In this document: piece by piece, positions 12,906 to 33,842 of the stretch
Numbering within the stretch: position 1 is the stretch's first letter
How the letters are laid out: every line of letters begins with the position of its first letter
Virus record (IMG/VR): IMGVR_UViG_3300023174_000017
Span: 1-35,724 of that record
DNA length: 35,724 nt
Direction: 5' to 3' (one strand)
Origin: a virus
The notes under the pieces: model-generated
Seen by the model: the letters and a program-made list of their open reading frames with translations, nothing else
The model's database searches: none
Told to the model about the DNA's origin: nothing
Made by a program: the position numbers and the translations under genes

Positions 12906-13096
12906 TGAAAACTAAACCGCTTCGCCCTATTCAAGCCACCGCTGACGGCATCGGAATCAGCGTGGAATATATGAATGAGATTATCAATCGAATTGAGGAC
13001 TTGGTCGAAACGGCCAACGCACAAAAGCCAGTAGCGGGGAATAATGTGAAAATATCTTATCTCAATACGGGGGCTGTGATTAACGCTGTGCAGTAA
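12905..13096 (+). CDS. Small tail-tip adaptor, paralogous to next protein's N-terminus
   Basis: A 63-residue protein whose ATG overlaps the upstream stop and whose stop overlaps the next ATG. The arrangement LRPIQATADGIGISVEYMNEIINRIE then KPVAGNNVKISYLNTG matches the first 60 residues of the next protein (IRPIRDGKILDVNLINHIIQRTE, then KMVAGLNIFVEQAGNG). A small domain was thus duplicated: once free-standing and once at the head of the repeat protein. It could be an assembly adaptor. Confidence 0.55.
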   Translation: MKTKPLRPIQATADGIGISVEYMNEIINRIEDLVETANAQKPVAGNNVKISYLNTGAVINAVQ

Positions 13097-14163
13097 TGCG
13101 AATCGTCCCGCCCATCCGTCCGATCCGTGACGGCAAGATCCTCGATGTTAATTTAATCAATCACATAATCCAACGCACCGAGTACGGTGCAGAACTGCTT
13201 GCGAGATATAAGATGGTCGCTGGCTTGAATATATTTGTGGAGCAAGCGGGTAACGGACTAGGCGTATCATATTTAACCGCACTTGCTGGCGGGGCTGGCA
13301 ATCCAGTTCAATCGGGAAGTGCGGGCACGGGTAACGGCGGAGCTGGAACTGGAACGGGTGGGGCGGGGACGGGAACGGGTGGAGCTGGAACGCCAAAGCC
13401 GGCTACTCAGCCGTACAGAATTGCTGGAACTTATGGATTAGGCGGGAGAAATAGAATTTTTATTTATGACGGGTCAACATATACAGATATATATTTTGGA
13501 AATGATAAGCAGATTTTGGGTGTAGGATGGAAAATTGGCATCAGTGGCCTAAATCTTGTCGGGAGTTATCTTTTCAATGGGGATGTGACATCCTTTTTTT
13601 ATAATGGTTTAATAGAGACAGAATTTCGCGTGCCTAATTCCAGGAGAACTGACGCTTTCGACATTGATGGTTCAAATATTTGTGGAAGTTATAATCCGCA
13701 AACTGGGCGTGGGGAAGGCTTTTTTTATAATGGCTCAACATATACGGACTTAATTTTTCCCCCTAATTTTTCCACACTTGCTTATGGAGTTGACGGCTCA
13801 AATGTTGTTGGATCGTATTTAAGTGGGAGTTTCAGAGGTTTTCTTTATAATGGCTCAACATTTACAGATATATTTGTACCCGGATCTTCCTCTACACTGG
13901 CTCATGGCATTGATGGTTCAAATATTGTTGGAAGGTATGCTCTAAACGGAGTCACTAGAGGTTTTCTTTATAACGGCTCAACATTCGTAGATATATTTGT
14001 ACCCGGCTCTTCTTTAACATCTGCTTACGGGATTATTGGTTCAAATATTGTTGGATATTATACTCTAAATGGAGTCAATAGAGGTTTTCTTTATAATGGT
14101 ACAACATATACCGATATATTTGTGCCCGGCTCTTCTAATACGGTAGCCTTTGGCATCGACTAA
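13096..14163 (+). CDS. Tail-tip/receptor-binding protein with HAF-like repeat propeller
   Basis: A 355-residue protein. Residues 1-62 are the adaptor domain shared with the preceding protein. Residues about 64-100 are a Gly/Thr/Ala linker (GTGNGGAGTGTGGAG and so on). From residue 107 there are six units of about 41 residues with the pattern GFLYNGSTFTDIFVPGSS, then a variable stretch, then GIDGSNIVGxYxLNGVxR. This is the HAF extracellular repeat style, expected to build a beta-propeller. The last unit lacks its final strand, but residues 107-120 (RIAGTYGLGGRNR) supply one, as in velcro closure. Probably the host-recognition tip. Confidence 0.65.
   Translation: MRIVPPIRPIRDGKILDVNLINHIIQRTEYGAELLARYKMVAGLNIFVEQAGNGLGVSYLTALAGGAGNPVQSGSAGTGNGGAGTGTGGAGTGTGGAGTPKPATQPYRIAGTYGLGGRNRIFIYDGSTYTDIYFGNDKQILGVGWKIGISGLNLVGSYLFNGDVTSFFYNGLIETEFRVPNSRRTDAFDIDGSNICGSYNPQTGRGEGFFYNGSTYTDLIFPPNFSTLAYGVDGSNVVGSYLSGSFRGFLYNGSTFTDIFVPGSSSTLAHGIDGSNIVGRYALNGVTRGFLYNGSTFVDIFVPGSSLTSAYGIIGSNIVGYYTLNGVNRGFLYNGTTYTDIFVPGSSNTVAFGID
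13285..13395 (+). repeat. Gly/Thr-rich short tandem repeat linker
   Basis: Low-complexity G-rich DNA with repeated GGAACGGG/GGAGCTGG-like blocks encoding a Gly-Thr-Gly-Gly-Ala linker. It is a candidate for length variation by slippage. Confidence 0.7.
13414..14160 (+). repeat. Six HAF-like repeats of about 123 bp each
   Basis: Near-identical DNA blocks recur at about 123-base steps in the second half, e.g. GAGGTTTTCTTTATAATGG in the units near 13835, 13957 and 14080, each followed by CAACATnTAnnGATATATTTGT. Early units are more diverged than late ones. High DNA identity among the last three suggests recent duplication or gene conversion. Confidence 0.75.
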
Positions 14164-23075: not shown

Positions 23076-23369
23076 ATGAACGAATCTTATGTAACCGCAG
23101 AGGCCAAGGCCAACGGCATACTTTCCGACCGCTACCCCGGCAAGGAACTAGAAAAACTCTACGCAACGACTCGCAACCAAGCCACTATTGATATGTTGAG
23201 GGATGCCGTGTTCACCCTAATCACCAACGAGATTCCGACTTGCACGATTGCGGAAGTGCTAAAGAAAACCCACGGAGCAATCCAGTACCACCTTCGATAT
23301 TTGGAAGGCAGGGGCAAGATCAAGAGGCCAAACAAGCGATGCCATTGGACGGAGGTAAAGTGTGAATGA
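23076..23369 (+). CDS. Small winged-helix-like protein
   Basis: A 97-residue protein. TCTIAEVLKKTHGAIQYHLRYLEGRGKIKR (about residues 52-82) reads as a winged helix with a YHL recognition segment and basic wing. It overlaps the methyltransferase start by eight bases, so it might regulate or accompany that gene. Confidence 0.55.
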   Translation: MNESYVTAEAKANGILSDRYPGKELEKLYATTRNQATIDMLRDAVFTLITNEIPTCTIAEVLKKTHGAIQYHLRYLEGRGKIKRPNKRCHWTEVKCE

Positions 23370-24092
23370 AAAGCCAACCCACCTCGACTTGTTCAGCGGA
23401 ATCGGAGGATTCGCTCTTGCCGCTGGATGGGCTGGATTTGAAACCATTGGATTCTGTGAAATCGAACCATACTGCCAAGCCGTTCTTAAAAAGCATTGGC
23501 CGCAAGTCCCAATTCACACGGACATCAGAGAACTGCGGGGGGGGGGGGGCAAAGAATCGATTTACTTAAAGGGGGTTTTCCTTGTCAGCCATTCAGTTTT
23601 GCCGGGAAGCGAAGAGGCAAGGATGATGACCGTTACCTCTGGCAAGAAATGTTTAGGATTATCAAAGAAACAAACCCGGCTTGGATTATTGGAGAAAATG
23701 TTGCTGGAATCATCAATTTGGGATTGCAAGAAACGATTACTAATTTGGAAGCCTTTGATTATGAAGTCAGGGTATTTGATATATCAGCTTTATCCATCGA
23801 TGCCGTCCATAAGAGAGAACGGATTTGGATTGTTGCCAACTCCAACGGCAAGCGACAAAACCTATGGCAGAAAACCATCGACAAAAAGGAAAAACAACGA
23901 ACCCAAAACATCGTTGAGGGATGTTCTTTCAGAGAAATTCTCAAAGAATGGCAAGGGTGGAAGTCCACACCCTACATTTGTAGAAGCGATGATGGGATAC
24001 CCAATAGGATGGACAGAATTAAAGGACTCGGTAACGCCATCGTGCCACAAGTCGCATACCAAATCATAAAAGGCATAAGAGAGCTTCTATGA
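23362..24092 (+). CDS. Cytosine-C5 DNA methyltransferase, frame broken at a G13 tract
   Basis: The N-terminal frame (from ATG 23362) carries motif I LDLFSGIGGFALA and EIEPYCQAVL. After the G13 tract (23537-23549) the remaining motifs are in the frame one base back: PCQ motif IV (23580-23588), GENVAGI (VI), RERIW (VIII, from 23814) and GLGNAIVPQ (X, 24024-24050), ending at TGA 24090-24092. One extra G or two fewer would give an intact 243-residue enzyme; so would a -1 slip. As sequenced, the gene is off unless recoded. It probably modifies phage DNA against host restriction. Sequencing error in the G run cannot be excluded. Confidence 0.75.
23537..23549 (+). repeat. 13-G homopolymer tract in methyltransferase gene
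   Basis: Thirteen consecutive G in a genome with few other long homopolymers. It encodes a short glycine run just before the catalytic PCQ motif. Such tracts change length by slipped-strand mispairing and are typical contingency loci. Confidence 0.85.
23817..24069 (+). other. Alternative frame with a second methyltransferase-like C-terminus
   Basis: The N-terminal frame as sequenced (G13) stays open to the TAG/TGA after 24066. In this frame the DNA reads ENGFGLLPTPTASD (about 23815-23856) and HPTFVEAMMGYPIGWTEL (23968-24021), the C-terminal signature of another class of phage cytosine methyltransferases. These stretches overlap motifs VIII and X of the other frame. Confidence 0.5.
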
Positions 24093-26260: not shown

Positions 26261-27439
26261 ATGAAATATCCTTGTCTATTAACCAAAAAAATCTCCGAGA
26301 TATCGGGGGCAAAATATAATCCTAGAAAAATATCCGATGAGGCGATGGGTCGATTGACCAAGAGCCTAGCGGAGTTCGGGAACATCCAACCTATAACTTG
26401 GAATGTGCGAACTGGGAATGTTGTCGGAGGCCACCAGAGGCTCAAGGTCTACAAGGCTATGGGCAAAACCGAGGTCGAGGTGTGGGCGGTCGATTTAGAT
26501 GAGCAGAAGGAGAAGGCGGCCAACATAGCCCTCAACAAGTTGAGCGGGGAGTTCGATATGCCGATGCTCAAAGACATCCTAGAGGAAATCGATACTGGCG
26601 ATCTGGATATGGAAATTACTGGGTTCGGGATGGATGAGATTGCTTTGATGATGGAGGACGCACACCCAGAAGTAACCGAGGACGAAGTACCAGAAGTTCC
26701 AGTTGATGCGATTACCAAGCTGGGCGACTTGTGGCTTCTTGGGGAACACAGATTGCTTTGCGGTGATTCTGCGAGCATAAAAGACGCAGAAAAGCTAATG
26801 AATGGGGAACTTGCTGATATGGTTCTTACCGACCCGCCCTATGGCGTAAGCTATACTGGCAAAACCAAGGACGCATTAAAAATTGAGAATGATGACCTAT
26901 CAGAATCAGACCTAATTGAAAAATGCAAGAGCTGGTTCGATGTGGCCGAGTCTATGTCTAGGGATGGGGCATACTGGATCGCAACCGTCCCGTCGGGACG
27001 GTTGCATAGTGTGTTCTTGAACGATTGGAAAGGCCGAGAAATATTAAGACAAATACTGGTATGGAATAAAGATTCTATGGTTATGGGTCATAGTGAATAC
27101 CACTACAAACACGAACCCATACTTTTTGGATGGAAACCCGGAGAAAGATTAAAAAACAAAGATAGAACAAAAACAACCGTGTGGGACTTTAAAAGACCAA
27201 AGGCATCAAGAGAACACCCGACAATGAAGCCAATCGAGATGTGGTGTTATGCGATGGGCAATCACACGAAGAATGGAGACCTCCTTTACGAACCATTCTG
27301 CGGTTCTGGAACAACTATAATCGCCGCCGAGCAATTAGGTCGCAAATGCTACGGAATGGAAATCAGCCCCAACTACTGCGATGTGATTGTGAAGCGATGG
27401 GAAAACCTTACCGGCAAAAAGGCCACGCTTGCCAAATGA
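26261..27439 (+). CDS. ParB-like/DNA adenine (or N4-cytosine) methyltransferase fusion
   Basis: A 392-residue protein. Residues 1-120 form a ParB/Srx-like domain (KYNPRKISDEAMGRLTKS, IQPITW, and VVGGHQRLKVY at 55-65). Residues about 150-392 form a beta-class amino-methyltransferase: DPPYGVSY at 191 (motif IV) precedes EPFCGSGTT at 344 (motif I), and GMEIS follows. The same fusion is common in phages and prophages and protects phage DNA from restriction or marks it. The gene holds a perfect inverted repeat at 26981-27005. Confidence 0.85.
   Translation: MKYPCLLTKKISEISGAKYNPRKISDEAMGRLTKSLAEFGNIQPITWNVRTGNVVGGHQRLKVYKAMGKTEVEVWAVDLDEQKEKAANIALNKLSGEFDMPMLKDILEEIDTGDLDMEITGFGMDEIALMMEDAHPEVTEDEVPEVPVDAITKLGDLWLLGEHRLLCGDSASIKDAEKLMNGELADMVLTDPPYGVSYTGKTKDALKIENDDLSESDLIEKCKSWFDVAESMSRDGAYWIATVPSGRLHSVFLNDWKGREILRQILVWNKDSMVMGHSEYHYKHEPILFGWKPGERLKNKDRTKTTVWDFKRPKASREHPTMKPIEMWCYAMGNHTKNGDLLYEPFCGSGTTIIAAEQLGRKCYGMEISPNYCDVIVKRWENLTGKKATLAK
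26981..27005. repeat. Perfect 12-bp inverted repeat with 1-bp centre
   Basis: GCAACCGTCCCG and its exact reverse complement flank a single T, inside the ParB-methyltransferase coding sequence. No T-run follows, so it is not a standard terminator. Confidence 0.8.
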
Positions 27440-30527: not shown

Positions 30528-30750
30528 TTTCATCGGGCTACCCCTCACCACCCTAACTTCTCTGCGTGATAAATATATCACTTGCCTCGAAGCAATAGCG
30601 GTGGCGGGTTCAAGCTATTCGATAGCTGGACGCTCTTTCTCAAGGGCGAATCTGGGTGAGGTGAGAGATACGATTGCGGAACTTACACTAGCCATTCAGC
30701 AAGCGACTGGTACTAGGGTTCGCACAACCTACGCAAACTTTGGCTCGTGA
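30514..30750 (+). CDS. Head-tail joining protein, gpW-like
   Basis: A 78-residue protein from ATG 30514 (in-frame GTG 30502 is an alternative). SIAGRSFSRANLGEVRDTIAELTLAIQ resembles the central strand-helix part of gpW, and its length and place between TerL and portal are exactly those of gpW. It would extend the portal channel. Its stop overlaps the GTG/TG of the portal start region (30747). Confidence 0.7.
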   Translation: MAKGDFIGLPLTTLTSLRDKYITCLEAIAVAGSSYSIAGRSFSRANLGEVRDTIAELTLAIQQATGTRVRTTYANFGS

Positions 30751-33700
30751 AAAAAGCCTCTCTCAATCTGATCGACAAGGCGATTGCCTTTGTAAATCCT
30801 CAAGGTGCAGTTGATAGGCTTGTTGCTCGTCAAAAGATTAAGAACTTCGAGTATGATGCGGTAAAGTATTCAAGGCAACGCAAGGGGCCGAGTTCGCTTT
30901 CTGGTGCGGAAGATTATCGTTCTAACTATGACCGAGTGGAGCTGATGAAAAGGGCGAGGGATTTGGCAGAGAATGTTGGCCTAGTTCGCTCCATTCTAAT
31001 GAAGTTCGCCAGTCACACCGCCGCAAACATTTCCTACCAAGCCCGAACCGAGAATCCAGAAGTCAATACAGATGTTGAGATGTATTGGGCAGAGTGGTTC
31101 GACAAATGCGACATCACCACAAGGCATACTGGCTCAACACTTATGCAAGTAGCGATGATGTCGATGTTGCGAGATGGAGATTTTCTTTTTGTTCTCGTGC
31201 GAGATTCTGATGGCAACTTAAAGATACAAGGCATTGAGGGTGATAGACTTGGCGACCCATACAAAGTTTATACAAGCTCGGAGTTAATTGGTGGAATCCA
31301 TATCGATCAAAAGACTGGCTCGCCCACGGCTTATGATGTTTATAGCCGAACGATTGGCGATATGTATTCGTTCCAAGCAACGATTCCATCAAGCCAAGCC
31401 TTTCACCTATTCGACCCACTTCGCATTGACCAATACCGAGGAATCTCTGCTTTTCATACTGCCATCAATGATGCAACGGATATTTATGAGATAGTTAATT
31501 TTGAGAAGATGTCGGCCAAGGTTGCTTCTAGCCAAAGTGCAATTATAAAGAGGAATAACAACAATGCCTCCGATCTCTCCTCGCTCACAAACGACCAAGA
31601 CATTAACGGAAGTCCAATCAAACTAGAAGCGATTGAGTCTGGTAAAATCTCTTACCTAGAGCCGGGCGAGGACATTGTGTTCCCAGATGGGCCGAGCCGT
31701 CCCTCTGGTGCGTTCGCAGAGTTCCACAAGATTCTTTTGAGGAACATTTGCTTGGGTGTGGGCATCCCTTACAGCTTCGCCGTAGACCCTTCCGCTATGA
31801 GTGGCCCGACAGCCCGACTAGAGATGCAACAAGCGGGGCGCACCTTCCGCAGATACCAAAAGCTCCTAGATGATAAAGTTCTTCGACCAATTAAGAACAT
31901 CGTTATTGCCGATGGCGTAGCAAGAGGATTGATTGAAAAGAATGTTGGGAGCAGAACGACTAGAGGCATTTTCAATTTTGGGGCTAATGTCTCTATTGAT
32001 TTAGGCAGAGAATCCGCTTCAGCAATCTCCGAGTTTAAGACTGGTCTCCGAACCGCCGCCGACATCTACGCCGAGCGCGGACAAGACTTTGAAAGTGCTA
32101 TGAGGCAGAGGGCTATTGAGGCCAAGCTGGTGAAGGATTTGGCTGGGGAATACGAAGTTTCGGCAGATACAATTTCCGACATCGCCGCAGAGGGATTGAC
32201 CAGAGATTCACAAAAAGCACAAGCAACCACACCAGAAGGCGAACAGAAGCCCGCTGGACAACCTTCGGACGAGGATATGCTTGGCGGTGCTTCGCTCAAT
32301 GGGGCACAAGTGGCTTCGCTCATCAATGTTATCAATGCGGTTGCTATGGGTGCGGTTTCCAAGGAGGGTGCAGTATCTATCATCACCGCCGCCTTCCCGA
32401 CCATCAGCCCAGACCAAGCAAGGGCAATCATCGCTGGGGTCAATGTTGGCACAACCATCCCGACCACCAAAGAAGAGAAACAGCAGATTGCAAAAGACCA
32501 AGGCGAGGATACTTCAGGAGGCTCAACACCCCCAGCCCCGGAACCTACCACGCCCCCGACCGCCCCCGCTGGCACTTCTCAAAAAAAAAGTAATTTAGAG
32601 ATTTTGGAAAGCCTCGACCCCGCATCTATCAAGATGCTGATTGAGGGGATGATGGGCGGGATTGAGCTGGCAAAATACGATGGGATTGATTTTACCCCAC
32701 CACAAGGGGCTAGGGATGCCGCTAAACGAGCATTGGATGTGCGGGAAGGCAAACCAGCAAGCCAACGAGGGATGACCCAAGTAGGCATCGCTAGGGCGAG
32801 GGATTTAATCAATGGCGTTAAGCTATCCCCAGATACAGCCAGACGAATGAAAGCCTTTTTTGATCGGCACGAAGTCGATAAGAAGGGAAGCACTTGGGAC
32901 GAGCAAGGCAAGGGCTGGCAAGCGTGGAATGGATGGGGTGGCGATGCTGGTTACGCTTGGGCAAGGAAAGTAGTTGGACAGATGGAAGCAAAGGACAAGA
33001 AAACAGAGTTCGTTGCTGGCAGAGATTGTGGACAAGATGAGGGTGGAACTTTTGGGCCAGATAATAAATGTGCAGTAGGCTACGGCAGACCCCCACTCAA
33101 GGGAGGCTACACGCCAACCCGACCCGGTGGGAAATTCCCCAAGGATTACAAAAGGCCAACATCTCAAGACGAAAGGGGCAAAAGGCCATCTCCACCAGTT
33201 GCAAAACCCGGATTGCCGCCTCCACCACCGCCAACTGGGAAAGCTAAAAAACAAACAGAATCCGAAAAAAGGGTTTCAAAAATAAATGATAAATTTAGAA
33301 AAGATGGCATTCAAGCATTGCTTCCAGAAAATCCTAGAAGAGCAGAAGAAATAGAAAAGTCGTATAATAATCTAAAATCAAGGGGTTACGAAATCCCGCC
33401 GCCAGATCAAGTATTTACTATGGATTTGAAAAAAAGTTATGGCGGAGATTATGAGGGCGTATATGCAGTTGCCACAAGAAGCAAGGCTGGGCAAGAGCAA
33501 ATGATTTTTAATTCAGCTAAATTCAATAGAGGAGATGATAGTGTTGTTTTGGATTTAGAGTCAGATGTAAGAAGAAATTGGCTTTCAACAACAGATGTAT
33601 TTGCTCACGAATATGCACATAATGCTCACATAAAGTCGATTGGAGAGAAAGACGCAGATATTTATAGGGTTTGGAAATTTGGTAAAATAACCTCTGTAAC

Positions 33701-33842
33701 AGCATCCAAGGTTAGTAAATATGCTGGTAAAAACGCATTAGAGTTTGTTGCTGAAACTTTTGCTGGGCACGCAAATGGAAAGAAGTATGATAAGGATGTA
33801 TATAAACTATATGAGTATTTCAAAGGGCCGAAACTAAAATGA
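30747..33842 (+). CDS. Portal protein fused to C-terminal HEXXH metalloprotease-like domain
   Basis: A 1031-residue protein from a GTG overlapping the gpW stop. Residues 1 to about 490 are a lambda-type portal (ARDLAENVGLVRSILMKFASH, SMLRDGDFLFVL, AGRTFRRYQKLLDDKVLRPI). A Pro/Thr-rich linker (about 590-611) leads to an A9 run. Residues about 630-760 hold a phage module with RHEVDKKG and WNGWGGDAGYAW. A proline-rich linker (about 800-840) precedes the last domain, with HEYAH (954-958) and EFVAETFAG (Glu999, Glu1003), a gluzincin-type zinc site. From about 33240 the DNA becomes AT-rich, as if recently acquired. Portals are normally 500-600 residues long. Confidence 0.8.
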   Translation: MKKASLNLIDKAIAFVNPQGAVDRLVARQKIKNFEYDAVKYSRQRKGPSSLSGAEDYRSNYDRVELMKRARDLAENVGLVRSILMKFASHTAANISYQARTENPEVNTDVEMYWAEWFDKCDITTRHTGSTLMQVAMMSMLRDGDFLFVLVRDSDGNLKIQGIEGDRLGDPYKVYTSSELIGGIHIDQKTGSPTAYDVYSRTIGDMYSFQATIPSSQAFHLFDPLRIDQYRGISAFHTAINDATDIYEIVNFEKMSAKVASSQSAIIKRNNNNASDLSSLTNDQDINGSPIKLEAIESGKISYLEPGEDIVFPDGPSRPSGAFAEFHKILLRNICLGVGIPYSFAVDPSAMSGPTARLEMQQAGRTFRRYQKLLDDKVLRPIKNIVIADGVARGLIEKNVGSRTTRGIFNFGANVSIDLGRESASAISEFKTGLRTAADIYAERGQDFESAMRQRAIEAKLVKDLAGEYEVSADTISDIAAEGLTRDSQKAQATTPEGEQKPAGQPSDEDMLGGASLNGAQVASLINVINAVAMGAVSKEGAVSIITAAFPTISPDQARAIIAGVNVGTTIPTTKEEKQQIAKDQGEDTSGGSTPPAPEPTTPPTAPAGTSQKKSNLEILESLDPASIKMLIEGMMGGIELAKYDGIDFTPPQGARDAAKRALDVREGKPASQRGMTQVGIARARDLINGVKLSPDTARRMKAFFDRHEVDKKGSTWDEQGKGWQAWNGWGGDAGYAWARKVVGQMEAKDKKTEFVAGRDCGQDEGGTFGPDNKCAVGYGRPPLKGGYTPTRPGGKFPKDYKRPTSQDERGKRPSPPVAKPGLPPPPPPTGKAKKQTESEKRVSKINDKFRKDGIQALLPENPRRAEEIEKSYNNLKSRGYEIPPPDQVFTMDLKKSYGGDYEGVYAVATRSKAGQEQMIFNSAKFNRGDDSVVLDLESDVRRNWLSTTDVFAHEYAHNAHIKSIGEKDADIYRVWKFGKITSVTASKVSKYAGKNALEFVAETFAGHANGKKYDKDVYKLYEYFKGPKLK
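32581..32589 (+). other. A9 slippery run in the portal linker with an immediate -1 stop
   Basis: Codons here are CAA AAA AAA AGT. A -1 slip reads AAG then UAA (32591-32593) and yields a 615-residue portal without the downstream module and protease domain. The phase A AAA AAA is a valid slippery heptamer. No strong stimulator is evident. Confidence 0.45.

Follow-up and report, generated by a model that had tools for sequence, protein, structure and literature searches.

A guanine tract and a nested second gene in a phage cytosine-5 methyltransferase: a candidate phase-variable, two-subunit enzyme

Results

Organization of the methyltransferase locus

The window, i.e. the whole 35,724-nucleotide stretch of viral DNA analyzed here, contains a gene for a cytosine-5 (C5) methyltransferase in which a second reading frame is nested. 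Since their layout matches that of two-subunit C5 methyltransferases (see Discussion), the two frames were named alpha and beta. Table 1 lists the features of the locus; related loci are given L numbers where they have to be told apart.

Table 1. Features of the methyltransferase locus in the window.
Feature	Position	Strand	Evidence
Shine-Dalgarno-like GGAGG (23351-23355) and GTG start codon (23362-23364) of alpha	23351..23364	+	sequence; the same codon is ATG in L027
Alpha, N-terminal part with motif I (LFSGIGG), outside the beta overlap	23362..23536	+	PF00145 E=1.7e-8, PHROG 363
Open reading frame of 235 aa in the G13 state, running from the alpha N-terminus (~60 aa) into the beta frame	23362..24069	+	sequence
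G13 tract, poly-Gly spacer ahead of motif IV	23537..23549	+	G11 in L003, G10 in L027
Alpha, catalytic and C-terminal part (PCQ, ENV, RERIW, GNAIVPQ), without motif IX; in the window not in frame with the N-terminal part	23550..24092	+	PF00145 E=3.4e-28, PHROG 363
Proposed internal beta start: ribosome-binding site AAGAGG (23612-23617), followed by in-frame ATGs at 23623 and 23626	23612..23628	+	ATG +16 to +18 codons past PCQ in 89 loci, SD-like stretch in 87
Beta open reading frame, 148 aa, +1 frame within alpha; LLPTPTASD and motif-IX-like HPTFVEAMMGYPIGWTEL	23623..24069	+	phrog_1008 match; phage conservation; shuffle, wobble and similarity tests

An earlier sequence-only reading had described a phage C5 methyltransferase split by a run of 13 G, with motif I and EIEPYCQAVL in the frame of 23362 and with PCQ, ENV, RERIW and GLGNAIVPQ in that of 23550. 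Both the frame assignment and the exact position of the run are confirmed, and the PF00145 matches of the two parts support the identity of the enzyme. Alpha carries motifs I, IV (PCQ), VI (ENV), VIII and X of the C5 enzymes, with the invariant columns of alignment A2. An uninterrupted copy in a relative, L003 (IMG/VR 3300032325_000284), matches PF00145 with E=1.2e-41; its predicted structure aligns with the 327-residue M.HhaI over 163 columns, which cover the large domain only. The gap between motifs VIII and X is about 60 residues long and motif IX is absent, which is the layout of a large chain of the M.EcoHK31I type.

The G13 run is the sole run of more than six G in the window, which has 20 runs of 5 G and 6 runs of 6 G. 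The Gly stretch that it encodes uses CGG and GGG solely, up to a final GGC, while codons are mixed in the remaining Gly runs of the window. GGG makes up 23% of the Gly codons and CGG 7% of the Arg codons of this phage; from this usage, CGG followed by four GGG has a probability of ~2e-4. A homopolymer of this length inside a coding region is hence beyond chance, as is typical of phase-variable genes.

The nested +1 frame is a conserved second gene

The frame that starts at 23362 stays open across the whole gene (235 codons), which the sequence-only reading had overlooked. When synonymous codons in the 3' part of the gene were shuffled 500 times, the +1 frame never stayed open that long. In the non-random sample of loci described below, 122 of 127 loci have an opening of at least 100 codons in the +1 frame of the catalytic part, so that nearly all sampled phage C5 methyltransferases have a conserved second frame. 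The opening is 150-340 codons in most loci, compared with a median of mostly 30-50 codons in synonymous shuffles in which the methyltransferase protein was held fixed.

The beta-frame protein matches phrog_1008 with E=1.5e-20 and is 37-46% identical to the matching +1 frame in Lacticaseibacillus and Paenibacillus phages. In all of the nine phages compared, the similarity of the +1 frame to that of the window exceeds 200 of 200 shuffles, and in R23.9 the beta frame is conserved at 46% versus 38% for the methyltransferase frame. Furthermore, third bases at identical four-fold-degenerate residues agree in 49% of cases in the overlap versus 30% before it, with amino acid identity being equal (0.42) in the two regions. 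By openness, shuffles, third-base agreement and similarity, the +1 frame is a coding frame that overlaps alpha, as expected of the second chain of an M.EcoHK31I-type pair; in EcoHK31I the small chain is reportedly encoded in another frame inside the large chain, a finding attributed to Lee et al. in 1995.

Taken together, the +1 frame is a conserved second gene, usually with its own ATG and ribosome-binding site. In the window the AAGAGG lies 5 nt from the ATG at 23623. A stop just upstream in the +1 frame excludes a beta start farther up in L012, L015, L019 and KM23. The ATG is missing from its usual place in L028, L034, L011 and L041, so beta may need another start or the upstream frame in these loci.

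The end of beta contains a conserved block, (L)NPxFVExMMGFPxGWT, which by eye resembles motif IX. Searches of Pfam, NCBIfam and PDB with beta gave zero matches, a profile search against solved structures found nothing real, and the structure predicted for beta alone is of such low quality (pLDDT 56) that it does not lend itself to a structure search. The assignment to motif IX is therefore drawn from the sequence.

Existing annotations treat the frame in different ways. PHROG 1008 and the 'internal genes' of Paenibacillus phages (e.g. Lily gp63) contain or overlap the beta frame; these entries are labelled 'DNA methyltransferase' or 'internal gene', and a nested motif-IX subunit is not recognized in them. 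Annotators chose the beta frame ('hypothetical protein') over an intact methyltransferase frame in Vibrio phage 1.291.O (L069, 689-1387) and in Pseudomonas phage phPA-G (L066, 689-1417). The methyltransferase frame is the annotated one in the sister phage 1.091.O (L065).

Near-identical genes have tracts of different length

A protein search identified L003, in which the same gene has 11 G and encodes an uninterrupted enzyme of 242 residues. This agrees with the earlier calculation that 11 or 14 G would restore the frame, and it supplies the G11 relative that had been proposed as a check. A pattern search with the flanks retrieved a further copy, L027 (IMG/VR 3300032249_000754), with 10 G. Over 655 bp (23374-24028) the window and L003 differ by one substitution plus the tract, and the 124 nt ahead of the tract are identical in the window, L003 and L027. 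With almost no point changes in the flanks and tracts of 13, 11 and 10 G, it is the tract length that varies in an otherwise near-constant stretch. Close relatives with in-frame and out-of-frame lengths, as expected of a phase-variable gene, were thus found among metagenome assemblies, in line with the earlier proposal that near-identical copies differ in tract length and include an in-frame state. The comparison of G13 with G11 is one between two different phages and between assembled contigs, not raw reads, and the long form (at least 10 G) occurs in three genomes only. Elsewhere the genomes of the window phage and L003 are mostly 86-91% identical where aligned; the near-identity of the 655 bp suggests a recent exchange of the gene between the two.

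These same data raise the question of whether the true tract is in frame and the gene always on, with the 13 G being an error of assembly or amplification. The data are metagenome contigs, and amplified short-read libraries are error-prone at long G runs. However, shorter runs in separate samples, G9 in L028 and G7 in L034, are also out of frame, while G8 in L074, G10 in L110 and G11 in L003 were all assembled in frame. We consider an error of this kind quite unlikely.

The 13 G could also be a fixed loss of function of alpha, with beta alone, or neither gene, still being of importance. Just ahead of motif IV the window has a K (at 23569) in place of a conserved T, which is retained in L003 and L027, and a second 1-nt deletion downstream in L027 breaks both frames, so that this copy may be decaying or misassembled. 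Against such decay stand the alpha frame of the window, which is free of stops past the tract and differs from L003 by the single substitution mentioned above, and the selection on alpha in another pair of phages described below. We judge decay to be improbable.

Out-of-frame genes concentrate at G tracts

A frame-blind pattern, at least 7 G ahead of motif IV, retrieved further phages with a tract at the same site. In two of them, L028 (G9) and L034 (G7), the tract breaks the frame, which is kept in L011, L041, L035, L037, L042 and L043. L033 keeps the frame through motif IV and leaves it farther on, and L040 begins at the edge of its contig, which leaves its upstream frame unsure. In the set of 127 loci, a non-random sample with 14 loci fetched for having a tract irrespective of frame, 12 loci have a tract of at least 7 G, and in 4 of these the N-terminus and PCQ are out of frame, as compared with 1 of ~102 loci that lack such a tract (Fisher p=3.5e-4; p=0.01 with sister lineages collapsed). 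Among 72 loci picked by the N-terminus alone, 71 are in frame and the sole exception is the G10 locus; all except one of these 71 have no long tract.

Two G runs lie inside the overlap, in L074 (G8) and L110 (G10, at 2667-2676), and are in frame for both genes. Their in-frame assembly indicates that G runs are not invariably misassembled. After motif IV, L033 as well as L036 and L044 continue in a beta-like frame, unlike L042, as if another frameshift had fused the N-terminus and PCQ to beta. The 'split' methyltransferases of Paenibacillus phages, considered as precedents for the tract, were rejected, since they have an intact alpha and an internal beta and no tract break. The pattern G>=8 ahead of motif IV had no bacterial hit in the genome collection; the 12 bacterial relatives read (L166-L169 were left out) have at most G6 at the site, in Pelotomaculum (L154).

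Alpha appears to be selected in two out-of-frame phages

Within the overlap, 94 sites distinguish L028 from L034, in each of which the frame is broken at the tract. With constraint on beta alone, 72.4+/-3.3 amino acid changes and 5 stops would be expected in alpha; we found 54 changes and 0 stops. The converse test gave 37 changes in beta versus 66 expected. Judging from these substitutions, alpha appears to be under selection in this pair now, or to have been so for much of the time since the split. Some alpha would therefore have to be produced, at least at times, through either a switch back to the in-frame state or decoding with a frameshift. A dead gene, the outcome named earlier as speaking against a switch, is not what these two phages show.

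Frameshift decoding would mean that a -1 shift of the ribosome, or slippage of RNA polymerase, on the G run yields full alpha and the alpha-N/beta protein from one message, in which case 13 or 10 G would not be an OFF state. Consistent with this, the four out-of-frame tracts (window, L027, L028 and L034) share one phase, which a -1 shift would correct. Moreover, alpha seems to have stayed under selection in L028 and L034, and these two phages are without the usual internal ATG, so that their beta may rely on the upstream frame. On the other hand, alpha is read directly, without a shift, in L003, L011, L041, L035 and L037, and the window has a beta start of its own. A programmed -1 frameshift with a stem-loop was rejected: the slippery run is present, but the folds downstream of it are no more stable than those of shuffled sequences (z=+0.6; pseudoknots are outside the model). 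The -1 slip offered as an alternative in the sequence-only reading thus finds no structural support. Nor are site and phase conserved in relatives, as a programmed shift would demand, given the in-frame L003 and the 71 of 72 loci selected by the N-terminus, all but one of these 71 without a long tract. Overall, we regard decoding as an unlikely explanation, though it stays a candidate for the lineage of L028 and L034 (and L011 and L041), where the internal beta ATG has been lost.

Discussion

Relation to known two-subunit and phase-variable methyltransferases

Phase-variable methyltransferases of bacteria and two-subunit C5 methyltransferases are each well known. The former are switched by simple repeats, as in modA, modM and the G tracts of Helicobacter and Campylobacter. 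Like them, the locus in the window has a long tract in a coding region, differences in tract length among relatives, and in-frame and out-of-frame states. It differs from them in being a phage gene, of C5 type, and in that the alternative frame is itself a conserved gene.

Among the two-polypeptide C5 enzymes, M.EcoHK31I has motifs I-VIII and X on its large chain and IX on its small chain, while M.AquI has I-VIII on one chain and IX-X on the other (PMC3404938). Judged by this published anatomy, alpha shares the large-chain layout of M.EcoHK31I (and M.EaeI). Unlike these two, the enzyme described here is borne by a phage, apparently without a restriction enzyme, and its large chain is interrupted by a G tract. 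M.AquI is likewise divided over two chains, but motif X is on its small chain and here on alpha.

The Corndogvirus pair gp6/gp5 is nearer to M.AquI than the enzyme of the window is. In the Corndogviruses Catdawg and Ryadel the methyltransferase frame stops past motif VIII; the overlapping frame, to which a 'DNA methyltransferase' annotation was also given, has the motif-IX-like block followed by IGNGVCPQQ, a motif-X-like end. The overlapping 'DNA methylase' genes of these Mycobacterium phages (L063, gp6/gp5; L070, gp8/gp7) look like alpha (I-VIII) and beta (IX and the X-like end) of one split enzyme.

In a literature search that left most subscription journals outside its scope, we found no phase-variable methyltransferase of a phage and no nested two-subunit phage methyltransferase. 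Nor did the literature searched describe a phage C5 enzyme in which one subunit is nested in the other and a tract affects only one of them.

A proposed switch

We propose that the locus encodes a two-subunit phage C5 methyltransferase with a nested beta subunit and that the G tract is a slipped-strand phase-variation switch on the modification of phage DNA. Slippage at the DNA level is in our judgement the most likely explanation, with decoding slippage and assembly error next and decay last; we put the probability of the proposal at roughly 0.55. The source phage would be a tailed phage in which alpha carries motifs I-VIII and X. Beta, translated from its internal start, would supply the motif-IX part of the small DNA-recognizing domain, so that the two chains probably form one enzyme.

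The hypermutable tract would occupy the last alpha-only stretch ahead of the overlap, where a poly-Gly spacer may tolerate changes in length. At 11 G, the state of L003, alpha is read in frame, which would allow production of both subunits. With 13 G, as in the window, or with 10 G, alpha would be cut before the catalytic Cys and its N-terminus would continue into the beta frame; in the 13-G state the beta gene would be left intact. Because the tract lies just upstream of the overlap, slippage by 1-2 bases would remove the catalytic half of alpha, spare beta and join the first 63 residues of alpha to the beta frame. Slippage within the overlap would instead break both genes. We presume that slippage occurs in vivo and is reversible, and that modification may protect the phage against host restriction.

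The sequence-only reading had suggested that the phage population may hold ON and OFF states of methylation. Its account of a variable tract is supported by the tract lengths, which include an in-frame state, and by the concentration of out-of-frame genes at tracts. Its plain OFF state leaves out that the frame entered there is that of a conserved gene; the switch would hit alpha only and join its N-terminus to the beta frame.

In a bolder version, to which we give less credence than to its failure, the tract toggles between two useful outcomes, such that progeny are in alternative states of modification: at 11 G alpha would be made along with free beta, whereas at 13 or 10 G alpha would be lost and an alpha-N/beta fusion made instead. 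In this version, moreover, nearly every member of this large group of phage C5 enzymes would have a nested beta as its second subunit, in most cases without annotation.

If the proposal is true, the progeny of the phage may be divided between a modified and an unmodified state, a form of bet-hedging past host restriction. Furthermore, should motif IX come from beta, inactivity would be expected of many phage methyltransferases that were cloned as alpha alone. Current annotation misses the second frame or picks one of the two at random, under names such as 'hypothetical protein', 'internal gene' or a duplicate 'DNA methylase'.

Other features of the window

The relatives of the window's terminase are distant (at most ~34% identity) and occur in Paenibacillus, Akkermansia, Roseobacter and other phages. 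The product of a second methyltransferase gene (26261-27439) has a ParB-like domain at its N-terminus and a DNA methylase domain of the N6/N4 type. Within a long ORF (13096-14163), a 123-bp unit is repeated in tandem about 2.5 times (13834-14136). The longest homopolymer besides the G13 tract is an A9 run (32581-32589), across which a 1031-codon ORF (30747-33842) stays open.
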